In this document: positions 2,348-42,254 of the stretch, piece after piece
Numbering within the stretch: position 1 is the stretch's first letter
Layout of the letters: each line of letters opens with the position of its first letter
NCBI GenBank assembly: GCA_024345305.1
Contig: BRON01000016.1
Coordinates: 124,001-188,000, forward strand
Direction of reading: 5' to 3'
Source: Mrakia gelida
Lineage: Eukaryota > Basidiomycota > Tremellomycetes > Cystofilobasidiales > Mrakiaceae
Length of the DNA: 64,000 bases
Position numbers and translations under genes: made by a program
The notes under the pieces: model-generated
What the model was told of the DNA's origin: nothing
What the model saw: the letters and a program-made list of their open reading frames with translations, nothing else
Database searches by the model: none

Positions 2348-2994
2348 CGTTCGAAGAGAGGGAGGGGCTGAAGGAGGTGGAGGTCGAACGAAGCAAAGGA
2401 GGGAGTCAGCGCGCTGTCAGATGAGACTTCGAAGCGTTCTGAAGGTTTGAGGTGATAGAGAGTGAGTAGGAGGACGCTATGGGAGAAAGAGGAGCAAGAA
2501 AGAGGGACAGAACTGTAGCAGTGCATCCATCTCGAGAAGGAAGGAAGACGTCGAGCTCGTCATCTCTCCCTCCTCGGTCGTCCCCGTTGGCCCTCCTTCC
2601 TTCGATCCTTCAGACTCTAGAGCGGATACGTCTACGACGAGATAAAGGTTCGACTGACTGTTGAAGATCTGAAGGATGCGGTTGGGTGAAGGAAGTGGTT
2701 CGAAGGCAACGAGAAAGAAGAAAGCAAGGCTTCGAGTTGAGCTCGAGCTTTCAAAAGAGCGGAGTTGGAAAGAGTCAGAAGGCCGTCATATTCTCGATTT
2801 CGAGATTTTATGAGTCTGAAAGACCTACCTTAAGGTGCGAAGAAGAGATTACTGATAAAGTGTTATGGCTTGATGGTTGCGAAGGCGACGGTTAGAAGCC
2901 TGGGAAGGAGGAGGTCCAAATCGAAAGCTCACCTTCGAGATCCTCCCAACGCCGACCTTCCTCCGTCTCCTTCGCTCCCTTCTTTCCCATCGCT
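2348..2994. promoter_or_regulatory. Divergent intergenic region, thioredoxin-fold gene / MYND-1
   Basis: The 647 bp between two diverging start codons must contain both promoters. It has pyrimidine-rich tracts just before the ATG at 2995. No specific operator was recognised. Confidence 0.45.
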
Positions 2995-4246
2995 ATGAAC
3001 CTTCCAGCCCCTCACGACTTCGCTCAGCTGCTCGGATTGCCAGCTGGCTCCGATGCGACTTCAGTCCTCGTCGTGACTCAGGACATAGTCGTTTCCATTC
3101 TCGGCCAGGTGAGCGAGGTCTCCCCCTTTCGACCCTCCTCGTCTCCTCCAAAGCTGACCTCCCTCTTACCTAGCTTTCTGACTTGAAGGGAGGATCTCTT
3201 GTCCAGAAGGATGCGTTCTGGGTCCGTCCTCTCTTCCACCGCGATCGTTTTAAGCTGACGACGGCTGACTCTTCGTTCCCCATCTCCTCTTCGCCCCTTC
3301 AGTCGGAGTTTTCCGCCGCCTACCTTCCCGCTCTACTACGAGCCGGAGCCAAACCTACACAACGAACGACAGTCTCGAATATACAGTCTGGCTGACCTAC
3401 GTCAACTGCCTCGAATGGATCAACCGAAACCCAGCCCAAGTCTGCCGCTTCATCAGGACGTTTCCGTCGGAATCCGTGGAGATCCTAGACCTACTGACGG
3501 ATGTTCTGATGAGTCTTTCGGTGAATACACGCGCGTCACCCATCATCATAGTCAGTGCTGTCTCTTTCCTTGCTTGTGTTCTGATTGAGTCGTGAAGTTT
3601 GACGCCTTTCCTTTTGATCGCTTTGTGCGTAGCAACTCTCCCTAGGTCCGCCGAACGCGATCGATCAAACGGATCTCTACCATATCCTTAGGCTCATCAA
3701 AGTATCACGCGTCATATCGCCTATCACCTACCTTCTGGATCGGGAGCCCTCGCTGCTCTTCCGTCGAAAGCTCAGGCGAGCGAGATCGTTCTGGGAGTGA
3801 GCCTCGCGTACGTTCCCGCGTTGAAGTCGAAGATAGCTTGGCTATCTCTCCTTGCGTCAGTGAAAGACAGCACGAACATGGACGTGTTTCAGCAGAGGCT
3901 CGTAGAGACCGCTGCTGGGGAGGTCTGGATCTGTTGCGAGCTCAAGACGAACTGCGACGAAGTGATCTGCGAGGTCGTTCAAGAGGGACGAGAGATGAAG
4001 GCTTGTGCTCGAGTGAGTTCTCTCTACAACTCTTCTTCCGCTCTCTATCTGACCCTCGACTCTATCCTTTCACCTCAGTGCTGTGCCGTTCGCTACTGCT
4101 CCAAGGGTAAGATCGAACCTCGCATCGTCCTCTTTGTCCCTCTCGAGGTCTCACGGCCGAGGCTGACCGCTTCTTCCCTCTCATCAGAACACCAACGACT
4201 CGACTGGAGACGACACAAGCAGGTTTGTTTCATGCCGCGATGGTGA
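2995..4246 (+). pseudogene. MYND-1: MYND-finger family member with two frame breaks
   Basis: This is the first of seven related MYND zinc-finger genes here. Exons are 2995-3108, 3174-3221, 3303-3550, 3633-4012, 4079-4106 and 4188-4246. It starts MNLPAPHDFAQLLGLPAGSD, matching the family start, and ends with a finger YCSKEHQRLDWRRHKQVC. Exon 3 (248 nt) changes frame near 3333-3341. Exon 4 (380 nt) changes frame near 3765-3797. Each would need one more base to stay open: 249 and 381 are multiples of three. Splice sites and the 28/59-nt finger exons are intact. MYND fingers bind proline-rich partners; the role of this family is unknown. The copy is either a young pseudogene or affected by base-calling errors. 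Confidence 0.72.
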
Positions 4247-5046
4247 AACCACCGCCGACCCATGTGAGTCACGCTCGTCTTAGGTCTTTGAAGTCACGTC
4301 GCGCCGCGTCCTTCGCTGACGGTTCGCTCGCTGTTCGCTCCTTTTCTCTCAGCTCCCTCGATTTCACCCACTCCTTCTCGACCATAGTGAGTATTCTATC
4401 ACCCTCTCGAGACTCGAGGCTTGTCCTTCGCTGATCTTCGCTTCCCTTGCTTTGCAGACTTCATCAACTCAAACTGTTCGTCCCCCTCGTCTCGTTTCCC
4501 TCTCTGCATCTCGCTTCCCTGTTTCTCTCTCCCCTTCCTCTTTGACCCATCGCCACCTCTTTCCTCGCGTCCCTCCTTTCCTCCAGATCGTCAGGCTCTC
4601 CGCTTCGCTCGTCCCAAATCAACGTCGACCCATCGATCGAAGTGGAGGACGACGCGTTCCTCAAGTTCTTACGCCCTGCTTCGCTTTTCTCTACGATTTC
4701 CCCTACCGATACGATACACGATCGCCTTACCTCCCTCCTTCCCCCATTTCCCTTCGTCCGAGCACAACACCACCGAACGAAAGACTCGAAGCCTAGCTCT
4801 GCTCGACTCGACGCGTCGATTCCTCTCTCCCCCTCGCCTCAGCGTTCTCGCAAGAATCAAGCAAAACAGACAAAGACAAAGCTCATTCAAAAACACACAC
4901 CTTCATCTCGTACGCGGTTAAAGGGCTAGGATATCAAGCAGCAGAGGGGAGGGAAAGGAGAAACGATACGAAACGAAACGAAAGACGAAAGCGAAGCAAA
5001 AAAAAAACGTACAGACAGAGAGAGAACTAGAACCAAGCTACATATC
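4247..5046. other. Non-coding stretch downstream of MYND-1
   Basis: Strongly C/T-rich sequence with only low-complexity Ser/Pro/Arg open frames. It likely holds the 3' UTRs of MYND-1 and of the weak minus-strand gene beyond it. No RNA gene or repeat was recognised. Confidence 0.5.
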
Positions 5047-5335
5047 TTATCGAGCGAGCGAGGGAGCAGAACCACACGACCGTATTGCTAGGCCCTCCTC
5101 CTCCTCCATACCCAAGTCCGAAAGGCGAACCAACGAAGTTCCCATTCCCGATCCCGTTCCCATAAGGTTCAACGCTCCTCCCGAAGCAGCGACGGCGGCG
5201 GCGGTTGCGAGAGCTGCTTCCCTCTCGGCCTTGTTCTTCTCGACGGCAGCTTTCTTGTTCTTGTCGACGTCCTTGAGTGAGAGAACGCGTCGAGATATCA
5301 GGATCTGCTCGGCTCGAATCCTTTCGATTCTCTCG
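5047..5335 (-). CDS. Hypothetical small protein, 5' end unresolved
   Basis: The minus strand encodes a charged, helix-prone segment beginning KDERIERIRAEQILISRR and continuing KDVDKNKKAAVEKNKAEREA. An Ala-rich stretch, a Gly/Met-rich stretch and a TAA stop at 5047-5049 follow. Its composition differs from the low-complexity shadow frames nearby, so it is probably coding. No ATG occurs in this frame at the start of the segment, and an upstream exon is likely because a plausible acceptor (CTCAAG) lies just before it. The family was not recognised. It lies downstream of the Zn2Cys6 gene on the same strand. Confidence 0.35.
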
Positions 5336-5862
5336 TCCTTGAGTTGGCGGCATGCGGAGAGCCGCACAGGCAGCTCTCGCTTCTCTTCCTCAATTCCGAG
5401 TCAACCAAACGAGAAAATCATGAACCAACTCGAAAACCAACAAGGTATCGCCTCATCCCTCTCCCATCGCCTTCCACCACCCCCCATCTCTTCCCACCTA
5501 TCCCGATGAACCTAAGGAGGAACCGTTACGCGGTAAAGAAGTATATGAAGTCTTGCTATCTGCGCTAGGGGCCGAATTGATCTGGGTTGCTCGCGTCGCG
5601 TCGCGACTCGTCTTCTCTCTTCCTCCTCCTGCTCTCAGCTCAACGGAAAGGATAAGAGATAAGTGGGACATGTCATAAGGAGACCGAGTACGAGAGCAAA
5701 AACAAGCAACCGAAACAACGTGAAGATGGGTGTGTAAAGACGCGAACCGAGAACGAGAAGAAAGCGGAGACGAGAAAAGAAACGACCGAACGAAAGAACC
5801 ATCACCCTCCTCTCCCTCTCCAACCCAACCCAACCCCAACCAGACCCACCCACCTCCCCGCT

Positions 5863-8800
5863 CTAAAGCATCGCGTTCGACCCGACCATGGGCGAGTTGA
5901 TGAGCGTCTCGAACAGACTCTGCTGATCGAAGCTCTCCATTCCTGGTCCTCCTCCTCCTGAGGCTCCCGGCGTGGAGGACGAGTCGAACTGGTTGAAGAG
6001 GTTTTGAGAGGACGGTTCACAGATGCCCATGTGGGAGCCTGACGAAACCCAACGAACGAAAATGAACGAGAACGAGAGCGAAGTCAGCGAACACGAAACG
6101 AAAAACGAGTCGCGTCGAGAAGGAGAGACGACTCACCCAGAGGGTTCAAGAACAGATCGTCCAACCCTTGGAGATCCCTCGGCAGTGGACTAGGAGCGGG
6201 AACTCCCGACCCACTCGTATCCATCGCGTGAGCTCCTCCACAGCTAGCAGCGAAGGCCTGTCCGAACGGCGAGGCAGCTTGTCCCTCCTCGTTGTCGTCG
6301 ACGAGAGCTCCGTTGAGGGTAGGGTTGGTGGGATTGTTGAGAGCGTTGGAGTTGATGGAAGGGGAGCCAGTTTCGGGGTTCTCGTCGGTGAGACGACGAA
6401 GGACAGCGGTGGAGAGGAGTTCGAAGGTTTCTCGACAGGCGGCGGAGGAGGAGACGTTGACTGTGAACGAACGCGAGCCAGGAAGAGTGGGAGAGGGAGG
6501 AGTCAGGACGGGCGTGACGGAGAGTATGGCGGCGAATTGAAGGAGAGGGAAGGAAGAGGGAAGAGGAGAGGACATACACGAAAGAGCCTGAAGCACACTC
6601 GAACAACTCTGGATGTCCATCATCGACTCGCTGAGCGAAGGAGGATCGTCGATGTTCCCGAGAGCGACGTTCCACAGCGTGTAGAGGTACGTGATTCCAG
6701 CTGTCGAGTCAACGAACGAGGGAAAACGCGTCAGTTTTACGTCGTTTCGTTTCCGTCGCGTCGAAAGTTCAGTTCGAGATCGAGAAAGAAAAGTCGCGAC
6801 TCACCCATGAAGAGCGTGTGAGCTGCCAGCCAGAGGTAGTTCATCTTGTTGGCCTGGTACATCCTTCGCACGATCCTGATGAGGTAGCTGGAGGACTTGA
6901 GGCAAGCCGAGAGGGCTGCTCGGGTGGGTCGAGGGCAGGCGGGCGAGGGTCGGAAGAGGAGGAGGACGGAGTCTGCGAGGGAGGGAAACGAACGAGCGAG
7001 GTAGGCCGGGAGTCAGTTGAGCGAGCCGATAGCGAGGTAAAGGAGAGACGATGGGCGTACTGTGGAACATCACGGCCCTGCGAAACGAAAGGAAGATCGA
7101 ACGAACGAGAAGAGTCAGCAAACCAGCCCGTCTCTTCGCTCTCCTCCGTCGCTCGAGCTTGGACTTACCACATCTCAGCACTCGTAAAGCTCGACTCCGC
7201 ACTCGGAACCGTACTCAACCAAGTCTTCAGCTTCTCGAGCATCTCGTCGAACCAAGCCTGCTCGGGCACTCCAGCGAGACACGATCGATCCCCAGGTGTG
7301 ACTCGATGGAGACGTCGTTGGATATCCGACTGAAGCTGTCGGATGAGGATGATATGTCTCGAGACCATCTTGGAAGCCGAGTTTTCTCCTGGGATGAGAG
7401 CTGTCTCGGTGATGTTCTCGTCGTCGAGGAGGGAGGGGTACTGGATTGAGGGAAGGAGAGAGGGAGGTCAGCGAACGAGCTTTCGATTCTCGACACGACG
7501 AAAAGGGAGGAGGATGAAGGACGAACGGGAACGTTGATGAACTCGTCTGCGATCATGGGAGGTCGACCGAGGTTGAAGCAGAGTTGACGGTCGAGCTGGA
7601 AGACCGACGAGAAAGTTCAGAGTCAGCGTCGAGCGAAGGGAAAAGAGTCGGCGCGTCGAACCGAATGGAACTGACCTTGTACGCCATCCAGAACAACCTT
7701 CTCTTCATGTCGACCTCGAGAGGGCTAACTTGAGAGGCTGAAGGAGTCTCGTGGTGGTATCCGAACTCGATGCACTGTCGCATAGCCATTCCGGTTAGGT
7801 ACCAGATGCCTGAGAAGGAAACGAGTCGAAGAATCAGCTCGAGCTCAAGAAGAGAAAGGAAACGAGGGTCGCGAGCGCGAGGGACTTACTTCCTCGTCCA
7901 GGGTTGAAGAGGGCATACTGTAGGGACGATCGAGGGGAAGGTCAGCGAAGAAAATAAGGAGGAAGAGAGGGAGAGAGAGAGAGCGAACGGACCTGGCAAC
8001 AAAGCAGAACTCCCTGAAGTCCAACGTGGTTCGACGACGCGAGGATACAGTCGATGTGCTTCATCGCTTCAGCGTGGAAGGCTTCCGACGACATTCGAAG
8101 ATCCGAGGTAGGGTCCAGCGTTCGAGAGAGAGCCATCGTACTCAGGGCTGCGAACGAACGACCGAACGAACGAAGAGGGAGAGAAGTCAGCGTCTTTTCG
8201 TTCGCGCCGTCTTCTCTCGCCCGCTCTCGACGAAAGGTGAGGACTCACCAAGGAACATCAGCACGAAAAACAAATCCTGCTCGGTCGCCTCCTCCGGTTC
8301 ATCCAACACTCTCGTCAACTGCTTCAAGAAGCTGGGCATGTGCAGCGTCTGGTTCTGGAACTGGATGTACTGGTTGTAGACCTCCACGAGCCTCTCGATC
8401 GCGCCTCTCGGAGGCAGGACGGGGATCTTGATCGACTTCCTAGGCGGCATGGGAGCAGGGGAGACGGAGGGACGTTGATCTCGAGGGAGGGTGTGATGGG
8501 AGGCGGTGAACTCTGGGTGTTGAGCGAGTTGAGCGAGAGCGTCGAGGGCTTCGGCTTCGGCGTGTGAGTGAGGGGAGGAGGGGTTTTGGTTGGAGGGAGT
8601 GTAGTTGGGGTGGGTTGCTCCTGCTGGACCTGTTTTCATGACGGAGGAGAGGACCATTCGGGCGAGGGAGACTGGGTGGGTGGGGAGGGAGGGAGTGGAG
8701 GTGGGAGGAGGGAGGGGGATCGACGTGAGAGAGGGAGGGAGGCAGTAATGGGAGAGACGCCGAGGGAAGGAAGGAAGAAAAGAAGAAAGGGAAGGGGAAG

Positions 8801-10247
8801 AGAAGGAGATAGGAGGAACGAGAGTCAGCAAAACGCGACCTCTCTTCGACGCGAACCGAAACGAAACTTGCGACTCACTTCCTGACGAGCTGCCCATGAA
8901 CTTCGGCTCCCCACTCTGCACCGACGCGAACCCTACTCCGTTCAACAGACTATCGATGTCCCTCTCCCTACTCCTCGGCTCTCCCGAATGCATCGACGGC
9001 GACGAGGTCATGGACGAGTGAGAGTTGTGCGAGTGCATCCCTGGGTGTTGCTGCTGCTGTTGTTGCTGGTAACTTCCGTGAGAAGGAGGACCCATGTGAT
9101 GCTGCTGCTGCTGATGAAGGGAAGGATCGATCCTTCCGAGGGGTCCGTCCTGGTTGTACATGTTGCTGAGGTCCGGTTTGGAGTCTGCTGCTGAGGCCGA
9201 GTAGAAGTTGGAGTAGGGAGGAGAGTTTCTCGACGAGGAGGACGAGGCGTGAGGCTGGTGCTGGTGGTCGTCGTGGAAGTGAGGATGGAAGCCTCCTGAG
9301 GTTGGTGTTTCTCCACCTTGTTGATGGTTGTTGACCGAGGAAGAGGAAGAGTTGGGAGCACCTCCTGCGTCTCGGTTGGCGAGTTCCCGACGGAGTTGGA
9401 GAATCTCTTGTTCGAGTTCGTAGAGGTAGCTGAGTGAAGATGAGAGCGATAGAGGGGTGTCAGTAACAAGAAGGAGGGCGGAAGGATACGAGAAAGAAGA
9501 ACGAACCTTCTCGAGACGTTCTTCTTCGAGACCGCGTCGAAACCGACACACTCGACTTTGGCCTGAGAGAGAGAGAACGAACGAACGAGACAGAGTCAGC
9601 TTTTCGTCGGTCAATGTATAGAAAGGGACGGCAAGGTTACTAACCTTCAAGCATGAGCCCTACAGAAGACCGAAACGAATGAACGAAGGGGAGAGGACAA
9701 GAAGGAACGTCGGGTAAAAAAGGTCAGCTCTCTCTCGCGCTCTTGTCCTTCTCCTTCTCCCTTCGCCTTCCCCCTTCCCATCCTTCGCGTACACACTCAC
9801 ACAAGCGGGCAGTTTACCATCACACTGTAATCATCCATCCATCAACGGTTACGAGATCAAAACAACAGCAAGGAGGTCAGCTTCGAGAGGGAGGCACGCG
9901 AGGGTGGGTTTGACGGGTCACGCCGAAGGAGAGAGAAGGAAAGAACGTACCTTGCTCTTCCTCGATCTACAACGAGCACACGCAGAGATGGCTCGAGCAA
10001 CGGTATGAGATCCAGCAACTTCTGGCGGAGGAACACATGCAAAGAGAGAGACGCGAACACGAGGAAGGGAGGGGGAGGGGAGGGGGAAGGGAAAGAAGAA
10101 GAGAGGAAGGAGGGAGGAGGGGAGCGATGAGCTTGCATTTCTTCGGAAGGTCTTCCGATAGACCTCCTCTCTCCTCCCCTTCCTTTACATCCTTATTCTA
10201 CTGATCCTAGACGATTACAAAAATCGTTGAGACTCACCTGCTGACAT
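5863..10247 (-). CDS. Zn2Cys6 fungal transcription factor with fungal_trans domain
   Basis: About 871 residues in 17 exons. Exon upper ends are 10247, 10021, 9824, 9659, 9562, 9429, 8671, 8147, 7917, 7809, 7595, 7440, 7077, 6972, 6700, 6460 and 6038; all phases check. The DNA-binding cluster has C-x2-C-x6-C-x6-C-x2-C-x6-C spacing (CARCRSRKSKC, then CDGKLPAC, GSC and KVEC) and is split over four exons. A linker and short coiled coil follow (YLYELEQEILQLRRELA), then Ser/Gln-rich sequence with two polyglutamine runs. The fungal_trans region has WYLTGMAMRQCIEFGYHHE, DMKRRLFWMAYKLDRQL and LGRPPMIADEFINVP. It is a nuclear regulator; targets are unknown. The first coding exon is only 10 nt (MSA plus one base). 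The intron 6461-6577 is in frame, so retention would also give an open protein. Confidence 0.9.
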
Positions 10248-16174: not shown

Positions 16175-17229
16175 AGGAACCTGGTCGTCCCTCGACGCGT
16201 CTCTCTTCTCGTGAGTCTTCTCTTCCTCAACGCTCCCAGTCTCCCTTCCTCCTTTCGTCCCGAAACAATGGATGGCTAATTCCGCCTTTCCTCCTTCTTC
16301 GCTTCCCGTTCCAGCAACCTCGTCCACCCGTTCGTCGCGTTTCTCTCGCTCGTCTTCCCTCGTTCGGTTCGGTTTCGTTCGACCTTCGACATTCGACTGA
16401 CTCTCTCTCTCTCTCGCTTCTTCTTTCCCCGCTCCTCCTCTCAGACAGAACCTCAGTACCGGGATCGAATCTGTGCTGTGTTCGCAAGTGGGAGACTTGT
16501 CGAACGAGGGGGACTGAACAAAGAGGGAGCTGGCAGTCGTCGTCGTTCTTCGTTTGATCTGTTGGCCGATGCATTGCACCCTTCAATGATGTTCATCTCC
16601 TCGCGATAGATCTGGAGCGGTGGAATCTAAGTTGCCGCCTCGACGAAGAATGGGTGCGTCTCAAGAAGGTAAACTTATCTCGACGAAAGAGAAAGAGAGG
16701 CGCGTCGACTCTCAAAACCGTTCGCTCTTTCGTTTTTCTCAACACTCAACTGGTCGTTTCACGACGCCAACGCTGAGTCGACTCGGCCAATCGCGGCATG
16801 TGTCGACTCGGCGGCGACGACTACGCTACCAGATTAGGAAGAGCGAAAGAGAGAGATCGAACACAACGCAAGAAAGGAAACGCAACGTTGACGCGACTCG
16901 AGCGAACAAACGACCACTCAACGAGTCTCACCTCCTGATCCTTTCTCCTCAAGACGGGACAGCCCATCCGACCCAAGGGTGGACCGTCTCGTACACCAGA
17001 AGGGAAATCTCCAAGAAATGAGGCGGCGACTGACTCCGTTGATCGCCTATCCGCTTCGACGCGTCGACCTGACCCAACGACGCCGTCCCCAGCGAACCGA
17101 TTTGCCTCTTTTCAGTTGACACCTGAGACGCTGTGATCGTCGCCAGCACCCTCAGAACGCAGCTGGTTCAGATGAAGGTTCTCGGGTGAAAACTGCCAGG
17201 GAAAAGAGGAAATCCGCACTCGCTCGCCA
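16175..17229. other. Non-coding stretch downstream of MYND-2
   Basis: C/T-rich then mixed sequence with no persuasive exon. The first part is probably the MYND-2 3' UTR. The end near 17.0-17.2 kb begins to resemble the hairpin-rich zone that follows. Confidence 0.45.
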
Positions 17230-19190
17230 TTGTTAGGCAAACAGCTCCGAGGTGTCTAACATCGTTTCGTTGAGACCTCATCTCCCATCTCAACTCATCT
17301 ATCAAGCATCCTCCTCTCGCTAGGATAGAGAGAGGAAGTTGCTTGGATGAAAAGAGCACGAAAGGGAGAAAGAGGGCCAACGAACGACCAAGATGAGCGC
17401 CTCTCGTTCGCGATGGATATCAGAGCTCGCAGTCGAAACGGCGTGAGATGAGAGACAAGAAGGAAAGAGATGGTTGGGGAAGGAACGAGAAGGATTGAAG
17501 GCAGAGAAAGAGGGAGGACGAAACATGAATTGAGAGTCGCGTCGTGCGAAACCCGACCTCCTGAGTACGACCCGCAACCAGAGCATCATACGGCGTCCAA
17601 AGAGCCGTGTGAGAATCCGGTGAAGAGTCGAAGAAAAAGATCGGGAATGGATTGACGAGATCTCGACGAAGGAACGAAGGAAAGAAGACGGACGCGCCAC
17701 GGACATGTTTGCCTTTGCTTGCTTGAGATCCGGCTTCCCTCCCAAACCCAGCACCCAAAAGCTCCCATCACCTGAGGAGGTGGAGGGCTACTAGTGGGTA
17801 GCGGCCGGAGGAAGAAAGTCGGGAATCGAACCACTGCAATGAAACGAAAGAAAAACAGGCTCGACGCGTCGTCGATCTTTGGACGGACGAGAGGAGATCC
17901 GCCCAGCCCCAAAGATTAAGAGCCTAGATCGGGGGGCGACATTCAGAAACTGACGAGATCTACTCTTGTTCTGAAACTGGGCGGGAGTCCTGCGACCGAA
18001 TGAAAGGAAAGGGAAGGGAGGAAGAGAGGACGAGACGTGCGGCCGAAGCGTGGCGACGACTCCACTCCTCGAACGCACCAGCTCACGAAGCTGCTTAGGA
18101 CAGCGAACCTCGTGAGCGAAGGATAGGAGGAGTGGGGAGGTCGCTTACAGCGAGAAGAAAATGGGGAAGGAGCGAGGAAGAAAGGAAGAACACGTGCTGA
18201 TCAAGGGAGATCCGACAGTCTCCCTACCAACTACACCTGGGTAACAAGCAACATGCCTCTCGCGCAGGTAGAGTGGAAAAGAAAGAAGGTCGGGAATTCC
18301 TGCCGAGTTTCGAGCGAGACAAAGGAAAGGAGAAAGAAAGGAAGATCGCAAAGCAGCGACGACGTCGAGGCGCGTTCATCAATCGCGCATGGCGATCCGA
18401 CCTGCCTTTCCGCCCTGCTCTAACTCTATACGAACCCGCTTGACCACTGAGGGTCAAAGCAAGATCGAATCGGGTTAAGCCGGCGGGGGAGAGAGTCGGG
18501 AAGCCGCTTCGATGGGAGGGAGGGAAGAAAGAAAGTCAAAGGCTCGACACAAGAGACCCGACCTTCACCCTCACCTTCACACCCAATCAAACGAACGAGC
18601 GAGCCTCCTCTCTGCAGAGGAAAATCGGCGTTCGGGAACGGGTGCGAGGAGAGGAGAAGGAGGTCGGGAATCGTGGCAAAGCAAAAGGGGAGGGAGGGAA
18701 GAAGAGACGAGGGAGTGAGAGACGAGGGAGATGAAAATGAAGATGGAAAGAATTGAGAGAAAGATGACCCGACCTTGGAACTCACCCTCGAGCTGAAGCA
18801 CAGGGCAGCTCATCAGTAGATGAAGTGCGCGCCGATGGGTAGAGAGGGAGGAGGGAAAGGTCGGGAAGTGACTTTGGTGGGGCGGAAGAAGAGCGGGGGA
18901 AGAGAGAGAGGAAAGATAAGAGGACAAGAGGGTGGGGAGGAAAGGTTGAAAAAAGGTGAAGGTGTAGGAGGAGAGAGAGGAGGAAGTCGAAGAGAGGAAG
19001 AGGGAAGAGACGAAGAGAGGGAGGAGGGAAACGAACGCTCCACTCGTCCGGTCCTCCCAGAGACTCTGCTTCCTCGTCGCGAAGGACCCGACTCTCTGTG
19101 AAGTCAAACCAAGCTCAAGCACAAGATGATCGCCTAAAGTGAAGCGATACCGTGAACGAGAGGTTGAAGTCTACAAGCAGAAGAGTCGGA
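17230..19190. ncRNA. Cluster of about eleven nested hairpin elements, putative structured RNAs
   Basis: No coherent protein frame is present, but inverted repeats recur every 90-220 bases. Six or seven units have outer arms of the form GAYCCGACC ... GGTCGGGAA, for example 18555-18563 with 18662-18670, 18766-18774 with 18859-18867, and 19085-19093 with 19184-19190. Each encloses an inner hairpin: ACGGC/GCCGT (17590/17604), CACCT/AGGTG (17769/17778), TTGACC/GGTCAA inside AACCCG/CGGGTT (18433-18476), CCTCT/AGAGG (18607/18616), GAGCTG/CAGCTC (18790/18806) and ATCGC/GCGAT (19129/19144). Two units use different but complementary arms (17899/17977 and 18062/18127). The strand and the class of RNA are unknown. 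Box C/D and tRNA signatures were looked for and not found. That it is transcribed is inference. Confidence 0.4.
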
Positions 19191-19651
19191 ACGTCGTGGC
19201 GAGGAGAGGTGGTGTAAGGTGAAGAGAGAGCGATGGGATGAACGAGCGAGGGAGACGAGAAGAGAGCATAAGAGCGAGGATCGGCTTTAAGCCTTCCCTC
19301 GTGAGCTATACGAGAAGAGTGAAAGTGGATGGAGGAAAGAAGGGAGAGAGGGACGAAGGAAGGCCATGACCCCACCTCGTCTCTCTCGCCTCCTTCACGC
19401 CATCGTCCCTCACACCTCCAGAACATCCGAAATCTTCAACTTGAAGGTCCCAGTCTTGGATCAACCCTCCTGCCTGAGCCTGGAAGGTTCGAAAATCTTC
19501 TCGAACGAAAATCGACGCTGGCCGTTCGAAGCCAACTTGACCCTCACTCGAATCTCTCGCTCCACCTCTTTTGGTCAGCTCGCGCTCGCCTTGTCGTCGC
19601 TCCCAACATCCACACACCCTCTCCCACCTTTCCTCTTCTCTTCGTTCTTAA
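19191..19651. promoter_or_regulatory. Upstream region of SLT11
   Basis: No gene was seen in the 461 bp before the SLT11 start. The last 70 bases are pyrimidine-rich, as at other starts in this window. Confidence 0.4.
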
Positions 19652-22158
19652 ATGTCCGGTCCAGCCAAAGCTGATCTCAACAAAGCGGGAGTCGAGTCTT
19701 CGGATTTCCCAGTTCTCTGCGAGACATGTTTGGGTCCGAATCGTGAGTCGAGCTTGACCTCCTTCCCTCCCTTCCCTCCCTTGCGAGCTCGCTCGTTTCT
19801 CGTCCCCGCCTCGTTCAAACCATACGAGCTGTCGTATACATGCTGACTGACTGCGCTCGGTTTCCCACGGCGTCTGCTTTCAGCCTACGTTCGAATGTCC
19901 AAGCAGGAGTACGGAGCTGAGTGCAAGATCTGCACTCGTCCCTTCACCGTGTTCAAGTGGAATCCAGGACAGGGAGCGAGGTTCAAGAAGACAGTGAGTA
20001 CAATCGTTTCTCAGCTTGGAAAGGGTGGGATGGGGAGGGTGGTGGTGGTGGGAAGGAGAGCGTGGAGGGAGGGAGGGAGGGAGGGAGGAGAAGGGAAGGA
20101 GCTCATCAGACAGGTGGAGACGTCCGAGACGAGACCTCACTGAGTCGAGTCGAAGATGATGATCCACGAGCTCAAAGGGAGCATACACCTTTAGCGAGAG
20201 AGCTCAGAAGGATGTATGCGATCCCAGTGCTCTTCCTCTCTCGACGTCCTCCCTTCCCTTCCACTCAGCTCACCTCATCACGTCCACCACCTCCTCCTCC
20301 CTTCCCCTCTCGAGCTCAAGTCCCTTCGCTGACTCTCTCCTCTTCCCAACCCTTACAGGAAATCTGCAACACGTGCTCTCGGATTCGAAACACCTGTCAA
20401 TGCTGCATCTTGGATCTGTACGTTTCAATCGTCTCCTTCCTGCGAGCTCTCCTTCCTCCGTTCATTCGAGCTCAAGCTGACCTCGTCCGTCTCGTCTTCG
20501 TCTCTCTCCCACAGGGAATACGGACTCCCAACCCAAGTCCGAGACGTCGCTCTGGGCAGGATGAGCGAAGCTCCTACGAGTGATATCAACAAACGTGAGT
20601 CAAGCTGTCGAGCTGAGCTTCTCCTTCCCTTCCCTTCCCTTCGTTCGAGCTGACCACCTCCCTTCCCTCCCTTCACCTCCCTCCCACTCCCCTTTCCCTG
20701 CCATCACTTCTTCGTCACTTTCCCAGAGTACTACGCCCAAAACCTCGAACGTCAAATCGCCGACGGCTCCACCTCCTCCTCCACGCTCGCTCTCGACTCG
20801 CTTCGTTCCTCGTCGGCAGGGAAGGAGATGCTCAAATCCATGGCGAGGACGGATCCGAGCTACAAGAGGAACAGACCTCACATCTGCTCGTTCTTCCTCA
20901 AGGGGGATTGTACGAGGGGGAAGGAGTGTCCTTTCAGGTGAGTCTTGCGATGAGAGGTGTTGGGCGGGGTGGGCAGGGATGGGCGGAGGAAGGGAGGGAA
21001 AGGGAGGAGGGACGGGGTTGAGCTTTGGACGGGGAGTGGCGCTGGGTTGGGTTCAGCAGGAACGGCTGGAGCAGCTCGAGCTTCGAGGCGTGCCGGATGA
21101 AAGGAGGTTGAGGGCGATCTGATAGAGCTGTAGTCGGAGGGGCGAAGGACCGAAACACCAAACGAGTCGACGAGAGCTCACGAGCTGACCCCCCTTCCCT
21201 TCCCCTTCCTCTCCCCTCTTTCTCTTTCCAAGGCATGAAATCCCATCAACAGATACCACCATGGCCAAGCAGAACATCCAGGATCGATGTACGTACCGTT
21301 CCTCAGCCCTCCCCTCAATCTCCTCCCTCGCTCGACGAAATCGAGGTCGCGTCCAAGCTCGAAGGTCGAAGCTCTCACTGACTCGTCCCTTCCTCTCGCT
21401 TTTCCCTTCGCTCAACAGACTACGGACGAAACGACCCCGTCGCCAACAAGATCCTGAGAGATCACGCCGTCGAGAAGGGTCTTGTACCTCCGGAAGATAA
21501 GAGCATCGTGCGTTTTCGCCTTCCCCTTTGCTCGTTTGACCCTTCTCGCCTCGACTCGACGCGTTTGGCTGAGTCTCTCTCTTTCTTCCTCTCTCCTTCC
21601 CCATCCCCATCCCCTCCCTTTCTCAACTCCCCTCTCGTCTTAACCCCCCCCCCCCCCCCCCCCCCGCTCTCCTCAACTCGTTCGCGCAAACGCAAAACAA
21701 CAGACCACCCTCCTCCTCCTCTCCCTCCCAACAGCCATCTTAGAACCCGACCTCCGAACCTCCCTCTTCAAAGCTCTCCCTTACATCGCTCAGACGGATA
21801 TCAAGAGTATCGTGCTGGTGGAGTCTTCTCGTGCGTTATAACCCTCCCTCCCTTGCCCTCAAACCAGACTCCTTTCTCTCTTTTTGGTTCGAAACGAAAC
21901 GAACGCGTTCGCTGACTTCCTCCTCTCCCCCGCCCCCTCCCATTCCCTCCCCTCCCTCGCTTGCTCGCTTCGCTCGCAGACTGCGCATTCATCAACTTCC
22001 ACACCCGAGAGAAAGCCGAGCGAGCTGCTTCTGGACTGTCAGCAACGGGAGGACTGGACGTCCAGGGGAGCGTGGGTGGGAAGAAGGCCAAGATCGTTTG
22101 GGGACGAGCGAGGGCTGCCGGGGGGGCGAAGAAGTCGGCGGCTTCGACGGCTGCTTAG
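19652..22158 (+). CDS. SLT11: Pre-mRNA-splicing factor SLT11/Ecm2 (RBM22 homologue)
   Basis: 333 residues in nine exons: 19652-19742, 19884-19993, 20359-20417, 20515-20594, 20727-20937, 21233-21288, 21419-21507, 21704-21830 and 21980-22158. The N-terminal zinc region has [23 protein letters not shown] and [21 protein letters not shown] finger ([20 protein letters not shown]) follows. Then comes a degenerate RRM with [27 protein letters not shown] and AKIVWGRAR. The protein belongs to the Prp19-associated (NTC-related) factors and contacts U6 snRNA in the catalytic spliceosome, by family knowledge. It is shorter than human RBM22 because the C-terminal proline-rich tail is missing. Intron 7 contains a 22-base C run at 21644-21665. 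Confidence 0.93.
21644..21665 (+). repeat. Poly(C) tract in SLT11 intron 7
   Basis: An uninterrupted run of 22 C directly upstream of the acceptor region of this intron. A similar run of about 19 C occurs in a CCT8 intron. Confidence 0.95.
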
Positions 22159-38685: not shown

Positions 38686-41600
38686 ATGGTCGGTAGAGCA
38701 CCTCTTGTCGTCCCCTTCCTTATGGACGAATGTATGCTGACGTCTCTCTCCTGGTTCGTGGTTCTCAGGGTGTCCCCCACTTATGGAAGGAGGTCACCCC
38801 CTCCAACTCTGCCACCCTCGTCGAGCTCGCCTGGAAGGACGGTTTCCTCAATATCGACGGGTCTCGTCATCTCAGATTGGGTATAGACGCTAGGTTCGTC
38901 CTTTCCCCTTCTACCGATCTCCTCTCGGTCCAGTCTACAAGCGTGAAGAGGACATGTTGATTGACGCTCCCTCTCCCTTCCTCCTCCTCCCTCCCTTCAT
39001 GGTTCCGACTTCGTTCGTTCGTTCAGCATCTGGCTCTTCCAAGTCAAAACCGTCAACTCGGACTATCCTCTCCACGCCCTCTTCTACCGTCTCGCCTCCC
39101 TCTTCCGACTCCCCATTCGTCCGCTGTTCGTCTTCGATGGGAACGCTCGGCCGGACGTCAAGAGAGGGAAGACGGTGCCCAAGATGATGAAGGGAGGTGG
39201 GATGTCCAACGAGAGGGCGTTTAGGGAAATGATTGAGGCGTTTGGGTTCGATTCGTGGAATGTGAGTGGAGGAACGTCTTATGGGTCGATTTGGGGGCGG
39301 GGACGTATGCTAGGAGGGAAGGGAATGGGAGGGGAGGGAAGGAGAGGAGAGGTCGACGAGCTGACCTTCGTTGTTTCGTTGTTCGACGCATTCAGGCTCC
39401 TGGGGAAGCCGAAGCTGAGCTCGCTTTCCTCAGCTCGGAAGGGAAACTAGATGCTGTTCAGACGGAGGATGTGGATGTGTTGATCTTTGGAGCGACGGTG
39501 GTTTATGTCAGGTGAGTTTGTGAGCTTCAAGTCGAAGGGAGGGAGGGAGGAAGGGAGGAGGTCGAGACTCGTCGTTGACGATTCGTTACGATCCTCTTCT
39601 ACAGCACCAAATCCAAGAAGGGATACCTCGGCGACTTCCAGGTCTACGATCTCATCGACCTCGAGGAAGTTCACGACACCAGTCACCATTCGCTCATCCT
39701 CGCTGCGTTGATGTCTGGAGGAGACTACGATCAGGTTCGTCCTCCCTCTTCCGTCCTCGTTTCCTTGAGCTCGCTGAGCTTGACCGTCGAGCTGATTTCC
39801 TCGGTCGTACCTCCTCTTTCTCTCCCACAGAAGGGATCCAAGCAGTTCGGTCCCAAGAAGGCTCTCGCTCTCGGCCGAGCAGGTTTCGCGGACGAGCTCT
39901 ACGACGCGTACACCAAACTCCCTCGTCAAGAGTTCACCAACGTCTTCCTCCCTCGCTTCCGAACCAGGATCTGCGAGGAGCTCCGAACCAACTCTACTGG
40001 ATTCCTCGGCAAGAAGTTCAAGGTCGACGCCGACACCCTCGCTGCCTCGGACACCTTCCCAGACGTCTCCGTCCTCGATCGATACGTCAACCCAATCACC
40101 TCAGGCTCGACCGGACAACCTCGCTGGCCTGGATGGCAAGGGAAGGAATGTCGAGGAGCTCTCGATGGACTTGGACTCGCCGACCTCGGAAGGATCATGG
40201 AGAAGGAGTTGAAGTGGGAGGGGAAGGACGTCGTCCTGAAGCGAGGGTCTACGAGGATCTGGGAGGGAGCCGTGAGGAGAGCGATGATGCAGGAGATCGA
40301 GCAGCCTGGGACTTGGACGAGGGAGTGTCAGAGGCTAGGATTGGTGTCGCGTCCCTCGTCGTCGTCAGGGAACCACAGGATGGACGAGTTCTTCGACCCC
40401 ATCGGACAGGACCCTTCGACTTCCCTCACTGCTGGTCGACGACAATCCTCAGGAAGCAACGACGACGAGCTCGAGAAGAAGAGGAAACCTGGATCTCGAC
40501 CGTTTGGCGACTCGTACCCGTTCCTCCTCAACATCAAGAAGAAGCGTCTTCACGTCAACACCGGAGAAGCTCTCGAGGAGTACCAATGCGTCTTCGACAC
40601 GTCTCGGTTCAACGTCGAAACCGTCAACGGTCTCACTAATGGAGGAATCATCGATCCGGACGCCAAGCCTCGCTCGTCCTCCTCAGCTCCCTCGTCCAGT
40701 CAACCTCGAGCAGGTCCCTCCTCGTCCAAAGCCAAGGGCAAAGGTCGAGCTCCTCGTCCCGTCGCTTCGGATCCCGAGATGGAGGAGGAGGAGGACGAGG
40801 ACTTCACCCGAGACATGGAGTACGCCGTCGCTCAGTCATCCCTCGCCGAAGCTTCGCATCGAGACGGAGACTTCCATCCCTCGGGAGAACGAGCAGACGC
40901 GTCGGGAGGAGAGGAAGACGAAAACGACGACGATGAGGAGGACGTCAAACCTCGCTCGAGATCCAAATCCAAACCCACCCCTCCCTTCGACCCAACCGCT
41001 CCCGTCATCGTCTGGGTCCCAGCTCTCATCCTCCAACTCACCCACCCGGACAAGATCGCCGAGTTCGAGGAAGCCATCGCCTCGAAGGAGCAGAAGAAGC
41101 AGGATCTTCTGGCCGCGAAGGTCGAGCGAGCGAGGGTGAAGGAGGCGAAGGCTGAAGAGCTGAGGCAGGGCGCGGGGCTGATGAACTCCTGGGTGAAGAA
41201 GGGAGTCAAACCGAGACCGATGGACAAGGGGAAAGAGAAGGAGAAGGAGGTCGCTCGAGCACCGTCGTCGTCGAGTGGAGGATCAGCTCGAGGAGGATCG
41301 GCAGCTCCCTCTCGAAACTTCTCGAAGGGATCGGTACCTCCTCTCGCAGAGGTCATCGAGATATCGGACGGCTCGGAGGATGAACGTCAAGCTCCTCTTC
41401 CCAATTCTCCCTCTCCCAAACGAACCACCTCCATTCGACGAGCTCCCTCTCGACAGCTCCCAGACCTCCAACCCGTCGCGTCTTCGTCCAAACTCCCCGC
41501 CGCTTCTTCCTCCTCCCCACCCGTCCTCCTCAGCAGAACCAAGTCCAAAACCCTCCACCCCTTCCCCTCCGCATCCTCCTCTACCTCCAACTCGGACCAG

Positions 41601-42254
41601 CCTCATCCCTCCAAACTCCAGAAACGATCGCCTCTCAAACGAACCCTCTCCGCCCTCTCCGCCTCCGTCCCGAACGTTCTCTCCGACGACGAGTTCGACT
41701 TCGACGATGGATTCCCTCTCGACGCCTTCGACGCCGACCCAGCCTTCAACCTCGGAACTCCAGACAGGAAACGACGAGCTTTGGCTTCTGGACCGACGTC
41801 GGGTGCTCCTTACAGTCCCGCGAGGAAGCTGTCGCCGATGAGGAGTCTCTCGCCTAGTCCTGCGACGAAGAGGTTGGGGATGGAGACGGGTTCGAAGGGG
41901 AAGGGGAAGGAGAGGGACCGAGACGCTCTTCCTTCTCACGCTGGACCATCGAAATCGAGACTCGGAGGAGTGAAGCAGGAGGTTCACGACCTCGACTCGG
42001 ATTCGGACGACACCCCTCCCATCAAACTCAACCTCGGATCCACCCCTCTCGCTTTCTCCTCCCCCCCGCCTCGATCCAAACCTCGCTCGTCACCAGTCAA
42101 GAGGAACCTCGGATCCCTACCACCTCAACACAAACTCCCTCCTCTCAAGAGCAGAACGGACGTCTTCTCCGCGACCTCGACCTCCTCCTCCCTCGCCACC
42201 TCTCGTCCCAAGAAGCCTACCAAGCCGACGTACGTGGAGATGGACGACGATTAA
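38686..42254 (+). CDS. GEN1: GEN1/Yen1-type Holliday junction resolvase (XPG/Rad2 nuclease)
   Basis: 1010 residues. Exons: 38686-38688 (ATG only), 38769-38893, 39027-39261, 39396-39511, 39605-39734 and 39831-42254. After splicing the N-terminus reads MGVPHLWKEV, the XPG-N start whose N-terminal glycine is conserved in the Rad2/XPG superfamily. Active-site acidic motifs are LGIDASIWLFQ, LFVFDGNARP, APGEAEAELAFL, AVQTEDVDVLIFGA and LAALMSGGDYDQ. LGDFQVYDLIDLEEV precedes the helix-hairpin-helix region. A WVPALILQLTHPDKIAEFEE segment matches the GEN1 chromodomain-like region. The tail from about residue 650 is Ser/Pro-rich with acidic patches, probably regulatory. It should cut four-way junctions in the nucleus during recombination. 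The three-nucleotide first coding exon is unusual. Confidence 0.9.

Follow-up and report, generated by a model that had tools for sequence, protein, structure and literature searches.

The window (the whole 64,000-nt stretch of DNA analysed, C16:124001-188000) carries a row of hairpin units with a constant base and unit-specific pairing, and further arrays of the same kind are present elsewhere in the genome. The reading preferred here, at somewhat less than an even chance, is that a dispersed family of structured RNA units occupies at least four arrays in the genome, this row among them, and that its units would be made as a + strand precursor and released as hairpins at their common base. 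The arrays may be clusters of small structured RNAs, or possibly a repeat that has no function as RNA; the proposal of an earlier, sequence-only reading that the units are polycistronic small RNAs or processing units is plausible. Should the units be transcribed, a single fungus would hold dozens of members of a small structured RNA family that is missing from the catalogues, which would raise the questions of which protein reads the common base and what role falls to the fast-changing heads. If they are not RNA, they would be a repeat family that keeps a hairpin form in each copy, and a caution for structure-based RNA discovery.

Organization of the window array

Nine hairpin units of 97-126 nt, each consisting of one long hairpin, are located between positions 17546 and 19200 (Table 1). 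From the outside inward, the layout is a short outer stem (P0) that varies in sequence from unit to unit, a 2x2 internal loop of purines (5' GA opposite 3' AR), a constant stem (P1, YCCGACC/GGTCGGR), a pyrimidine/purine arm, often a second recurrent stem (P2, ACCY/RGGT, present in many units) and a head hairpin. The arm between P1 and P2 is variable, as are the heads, each of which has a hairpin of its own. The P0/2x2/P1 arrangement was present in the minimum-energy fold of seven of the nine units (w2-w8). The claim that most units have a GAYCCGACC outer stem holds for the exact motif in three units (18394, 18555 and 18766) and for variants of it in five; the remaining unit (18050-18146) has a different stem and retains the GA/AG 2x2 loop. 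The 5' flank TCGCGAAGG is common to w9 and to x11, the last main unit of the C5 array. The proposed number of at least eleven units is reached only by counting two upstream hairpins without the motif in addition to the nine of common architecture, and the first of these (~17099-17214) falls just outside the 17230..19190 interval originally described. The + strand of the array is purine-rich, with an AT skew of up to 0.51 and a GC skew of up to 0.57.

Table 1. Hairpin units of the window array and arrays of the same design in the genome (window positions for w1-w9 and the two upstream entries; R2, covariance model built from units outside the window)
Feature	Position	Strand	Description
Upstream hairpin	17099..17214	+	without common motif, membership uncertain; z -2.83 (17085-17215)
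2-3 small hairpins	17228..17350	+	without common motif, membership uncertain; z -3.19
Unit w1	17546..17650	+	AACCCGACC..GATCGGGAA, inner hairpin; z -4.40; R2 E 7.6e-4
Unit w2	17724..17828	+	GATCCGGCT..AGTCGGGAA; 2x2 loop; P2 ACCC/GGGT; z -2.86; R2 E 1.5e-4
Unit w3	17890..17993	+	GATCCGCCC..GGGCGGGAG; P0 AGGA/TCCT flanking 2x2 loop; forked head; z -3.61; missed by R2
Unit w4	18050..18146	+	deviant P1 CTCCACTCC..GGAGTGGGG; P0 GGCGAC/GTCGCT; GA/AG loop; z -5.87; missed by R2
Unit w5	18203..18301	+	GATCCGACA..GGTCGGGAA; P0 GGGA/TTCC; P2 ACCT/AGGT; z -3.29; R2 E 1.4e-4
Unit w6	18389..18506	+	GATCCGACC..AGTCGGGAA; P0 GGC/GCC; P2 ACCC/GGGT; z -3.45; R2 E 8.9e-4
Unit w7	18550..18675	+	GACCCGACC..GGTCGGGAA; P2 CACCC/GGGTG; z -5.37; R2 E 4.1e-10
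Unit w8	18761..18871	+	GACCCGACC..GGTCGGGAA; z -4.63; R2 E 2.6e-7
Unit w9 (last of the array)	19076..19200	+	TCGCGAAGGACCCGACT..AGTCGGAACGTCGTGG; z -2.79; R2 E 0.0048
C5 array	~2034.6-2036.6 kb; L005 ~3590-5620		eleven units
Two C3 arrays (L009 and L010, next two rows)	~2296.2-2297.3 kb and ~2238.5-2245.5 kb
C3 array L009	~5070-3950	-	read on the - strand
C3 array L010	~2400-9000		continues into L012

Fold stability and unit-specific pairing

Compared with dinucleotide shuffles, the nine window units and the two extra hairpins, scored over stretches picked by eye, all folded better (z -2.79 to -5.87), with 0-2 of 200 shuffles per hairpin folding as well. A blind sliding window (120 nt, + strand) gave a mean z of -0.78 over positions 17500-19220, versus 0.06 and 0.01 in the flanks. 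Over 37 units from all four arrays the mean z was -2.90 on the + strand and -2.99 on the - strand; outside the window, x4 (z 0.2), x6 (z -0.4) and Bb (z -0.1) were unstable.

For the arm-swap test and for the counts of P0 and the purine loop, w4, x1, x6 and the four S2 copies were removed. The core duplex energy of 30 units from the four arrays was -23.97 with the own partner versus -17.47 ± 0.70 with swapped partners, the best of 10000 arm permutations reaching -20.13, and the own partner ranked first to third in 16 of the 30 units; for 21 non-copy units the values were -24.18 (own) and -17.91 ± 0.83 (swapped). The symmetric fold score of 37 units was 50.8, compared with 40.35 ± 0.76 when halves were swapped. 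Within the 30 units, P0 showed Watson-Crick pairs at 64 of 150 outer positions versus 43.2 ± 4.9 after swapping (0 of 5000 as high), and in 26 of them the purine loop has A facing A. P2 was found in 20 of 37 units as against 6.4 in shuffled sequences (maximum 12, among 500 shuffles); it is silent on strand because its pattern is its own reverse complement.

Arrays elsewhere in the genome

The genome searched comprises 34.86 Mb in 25 contigs and, from the protein match to Mrakia frigida given below (Basidiomycota, Tremellomycetes, Cystofilobasidiales, Mrakiaceae), is that of a Mrakia-like basidiomycete, whose relatives point to a cold-adapted, non-pathogenic yeast. Whole-genome searches with exact motifs led to three further arrays of the same design on two other contigs, C5 and C3 (Table 1); two hairpins beside the C5 array (L005 4685-4752 and 5830-5945) were folded and not counted as units. 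The pattern searches returned 4, 5, 30, 3 and 1 places. The 30 places of the third pattern, for which the reversed-pattern control gave 3, comprised 14 within the four arrays and 16 elsewhere. No further array was present at the 13 of these 16 that were inspected (C6, C7:116105 and C24, with identical listed text, were left out), where the best single matches of covariance model R1 scored 20.2 bits (L006) and 18.0 bits (L032). As a DNA query the window array matched only itself. Two head words had no match in viral contigs, the plasmid collection gave no match, and a scan of viral contigs guided by proteins found no relatives of the host of the window.

The L010 array itself recurs every ~3 kb, with two to four copies each of units A, B, C, D, S2 and others, diverged to 67-69% identity. 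The third of these array repeats stops inside unit B (L012 ~490-950) and is followed by transposon-like sequence; a putative copia-like gag ORF was noted by reading at L012 4429-5289.

Model R1, built from the window and C5 units, recovers the C3 units. Model R2 was built from 22 units, all outside the window and with x1, x6 and S2 left out (alignment A3), and recovers seven of the nine window units with E 4.1e-10 to 0.0048 (w3 and w4 were missed), which places the window array in a new unit family defined by P0, the GA/AR loop and P1. The best R2 match outside the window array had an E of 0.052. Four of the seven recovered units scored 19.0-24.9 bits and a fifth 25.1 bits; R2 also matches L006, a lone place picked for its exact motif, with 22.2 bits and E 0.0016. 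Among cross-family unit pairs, 27 of 645 exceeded the 99% null level. Unit D of C3 aligned to x6 of C5 with a score of 47 (shuffled maximum 31), and a profile of unit D matches w7 with E 7.8e-6; judged by such alignments, kinship at the level of the heads extends from one array to another at least once. When copies of units A, D and S2 are compared, the heads rank among the best-kept parts: variation lies in the middle arms, with heads and the P1 base preserved.

Tests of selection on structure and of strand

Covariation was examined among paralogous units of this one genome. In P0 and P1, two-sided changes with pairing retained amounted to 16 cells versus 5.2 in shuffled sequence (0 of 500 as high) and to 15 versus 5.8 (0 of 500). 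Over alignment A3 neither measure was exceptional, the pairs with two-sided change being matched by 29 of 500 shuffles and the pair types by 79 of 500. The four copies of unit A show two-sided change at 6 of 24 consensus pairs and the three copies of unit D at 3 of 37, with an unfavourable covariation term of +2.44 for the latter. The earlier description of the units as structured repeated elements and not random repeats is supported by the shuffles, the arm swaps, the P0 pairing, the two-sided changes in the base and the recovery by the held-out model.

The comparison of copies excluded family S1 as well as the third copy of B, which is truncated. In nine copy families, the own arms folded better than cross-copy arms in 24 of 32 non-independent comparisons on the + strand versus 16 of 32 on the - strand; with five cut placements the permutation p was 0.009-0.11 (+) and 0.10-0.35 (-), the cut columns having been taken from + strand folds, which introduces a slight bias. 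G.U pairs (+) numbered 31 versus 54 A.C pairs (+), a fraction of 0.365 against 0.405 ± 0.049 in the swapped control, and hence no strand preference. The 761 single changes at paired places in the nine families gave 189 G.U, 235 A.C and 337 broken pairs, and Watson-Crick pairing was retained in 121 of 265 double changes, so that changes among copies are mostly close to, or little above, the unconstrained expectation. Only the own-versus-cross copy test, among the strand tests run, favours the + strand, and weakly; the purine-purine internal loops on that strand are suggestive and are not a test of strand. Since the two-sided changes in the base and the own-versus-cross result argue for conservation of structure, and the G.U/A.C balance and the classes of change among copies against it, such conservation is likely for the base stem and weakly supported for the arms.

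The same observations bear on a serious rival, which we regard as possible without thinking it probable, namely a dispersed, tandemly amplifying DNA repeat whose inverted repeats originated in local duplications, spread together with subterminal segments and are now decaying, with no RNA function and with pairing as a relic of their origin. Wobble pairs without strand preference, changes among copies largely as without constraint, and the ~3-kb super-repeats and copied blocks on C3 are what such a repeat would leave behind. It does not readily explain why pairing is retained in P0 while its letters vary between units, why base-stem pairs are altered on both sides, why own arms do better than cross-copy arms on the + strand, or why heads are among the best-kept parts between copies of A, D and S2.

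Proposed processing and candidate enzymes

For the preferred reading of the arrays as sources of small structured RNAs, we infer transcription, strand, release, enzyme and any function of the heads as follows. The array would be read from the + strand as a single long non-coding transcript, in which every unit would fold to a hairpin, with P0, the 2x2 purine loop and P1 forming a common handle. This base would be recognised by a protein specific for double strands, in the simplest case an RNase III-type enzyme, and one small RNA of ~100 nt would be released per unit, the variable head above P2 being its presumed working part. An RNA terminator, a promoter or a splice pattern was not established for the array. 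In the genome, five of six Piwi domain matches and four of six RNase III domain matches were over the cut-off (the latter with an ORF-level check), so that enzymes of the right kind exist; their link to the arrays is putative.

Argonaute (Piwi) together with several RNase III domains, and a row of long imperfect hairpins, would also suit an RNA interference hairpin cluster, in which Dicer-type cutting of the stems would pass small RNAs to Argonaute (milRNA or hairpin siRNA). This is unlikely, given that heads and P1 are kept and middle arms vary between copies, a pattern opposite to that expected of a conserved arm product; a constant P1 across unrelated units is, to our knowledge, no feature of RNA interference hairpin precursors. 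The fungal microRNA-like hairpin loci of PMC9757828 are similar in that the hairpins are imperfect and the genome encodes Argonaute and RNase III domains; the words 'tandem', 'polycistronic' and 'clustered' are absent from the accessible part of that paper, whereas here at least nine units stand in a row with one base motif and varied heads.

A further elaboration, a eukaryotic cassette system, would have a dedicated protein reading the constant base (purine loop plus CCGACC/GGTCGG), exchangeable heads setting the target or partner, and a repertoire enlarged as units, and entire 3-kb arrays near chromosome ends, are duplicated; we hold it to be quite unlikely. CRISPR repeats and integron attC arrays combine a constant recognition part with a variable part, in tandem. 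The comparison is limited to how such systems work. The present arrays are eukaryotic, have no known associated enzyme, and carry as their variable part a hairpin head and not a spacer between repeats.

Comparison with known RNA classes

The array had been said to match no recognised class, which agrees with the Rfam search (4227 families), in which no family reached its gathering threshold on either strand of the 64 kb. At E <= 10, the region 16400-19700 gave 21 weak sub-threshold matches, mostly to animal or plant miRNA families, and all but two of them were at 19313-19420 or at nearby purine/pyrimidine stems. A tRNA or tRNA array was rejected, as the window contains no cloverleaf: ARAGORN found no tRNA in it, and an intron-aware scan reported none. 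Ribosomal DNA was not found in the assembly with two primer words.

Membership among box C/D or H/ACA snoRNAs was also rejected on the basis of simple word tests on the + strand. The C box (RTGATGA) occurred inside 1 of 29 units (1.2 expected), a C-box-like word in 3 of the 5' flanks (1.7 expected), CTGA (D box) 3' of the unit in none (1.6 expected) and ACA within 25 nt 3' of the hairpin in 7 (10.3 expected). A guide RNA cluster in unusual dress is therefore very unlikely on these counts and on the lack of an Rfam family at threshold in the window, even with CTGA inside 15 of 29 units versus 8.5 expected and with fungal box C/D snoRNAs known from polycistronic clusters such as snR72-78 (PMC3596301, accessible text). 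Those clusters likewise have a number of small structured RNAs lying within a single non-coding stretch; they have C and D boxes and, in the basidiomycetes covered by the accessible part of PMC3596301, are intronic, whereas the present units have a constant base stem with a conserved purine loop and are without C/D boxes on the + strand.

Structured fungal RNA motifs (PMC5640933, PMC8216456) resemble the units in being intergenic structured elements with covariation. In the accessible text of these two papers, the second of which covers only Ascomycota, the words 'tandem' and 'Mrakia' do not occur and no array with constant base and variable head was seen. A literature search, mostly of papers open without subscription, returned no description of such arrays, the accessible portions of PMC5640933, PMC8216456, PMC9757828 and PMC3596301 included.

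Coding capacity and neighbouring sequence

The array was described as having no coherent protein frame, and indeed none of seven ORFs (103-181 aa) within or adjoining it has a Pfam match at E <= 1; with a motif spacing that is not a multiple of three, protein coding was rejected. Downstream, ~450 nt from the end of the array, an RBM22/SLT11-like gene begins on the + strand (start ~19651 by reading), with a weak Pfam match slightly below the cut-off and a PDB match to RBM22. This position and a co-oriented gene downstream of the C5 array end would suit an array that regulates the next gene from upstream or forms a structured leader at its 5' end, a scarcely credible explanation, because the sequence after L009 codes on the opposite strand and L010 gives way to more array and then transposon-like sequence, so that the arrays are not generally leaders of the next gene. 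No single kind of neighbour is common to the arrays.

A purine/pyrimidine hairpin lies between the array and the RBM22-like gene (19329-19412); several animal miRNA families matched it weakly, below threshold, which was read as an effect of composition. The word GACGCG occurs within 60 nt before 10 of 29 units versus 0.8 expected (window 17.2-19.4 kb and the units of all arrays), and is also present in other parts of the genome.

In an intron-aware scan no tRNA was reported next to the arrays of C5 and C16; a tRNA-Ser and a tRNA-Asp gene, both with introns, are located a few hundred bases upstream of the two C3 arrays (L009 5934-6025 (-), L010 1591-1701 (-)). C3 carries duplicates of a ~1-kb block that includes a tRNA-Val gene (L011 5197-5285, L010 530-1523, L009 8541-9091), the L010 and L011 copies being inverted and 98% identical, and ~69% identical to that of L009. 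Two genes with RNase III domains are ~2 kb apart on the same contig and ~40 kb from an Argonaute gene (C3:1425083 (+), C3:1427345 (-), C3:1466635 (-)). Within the window, the best match of the long ORF 39708-42254 was to Mrakia frigida, with 76% identity across the entire query.
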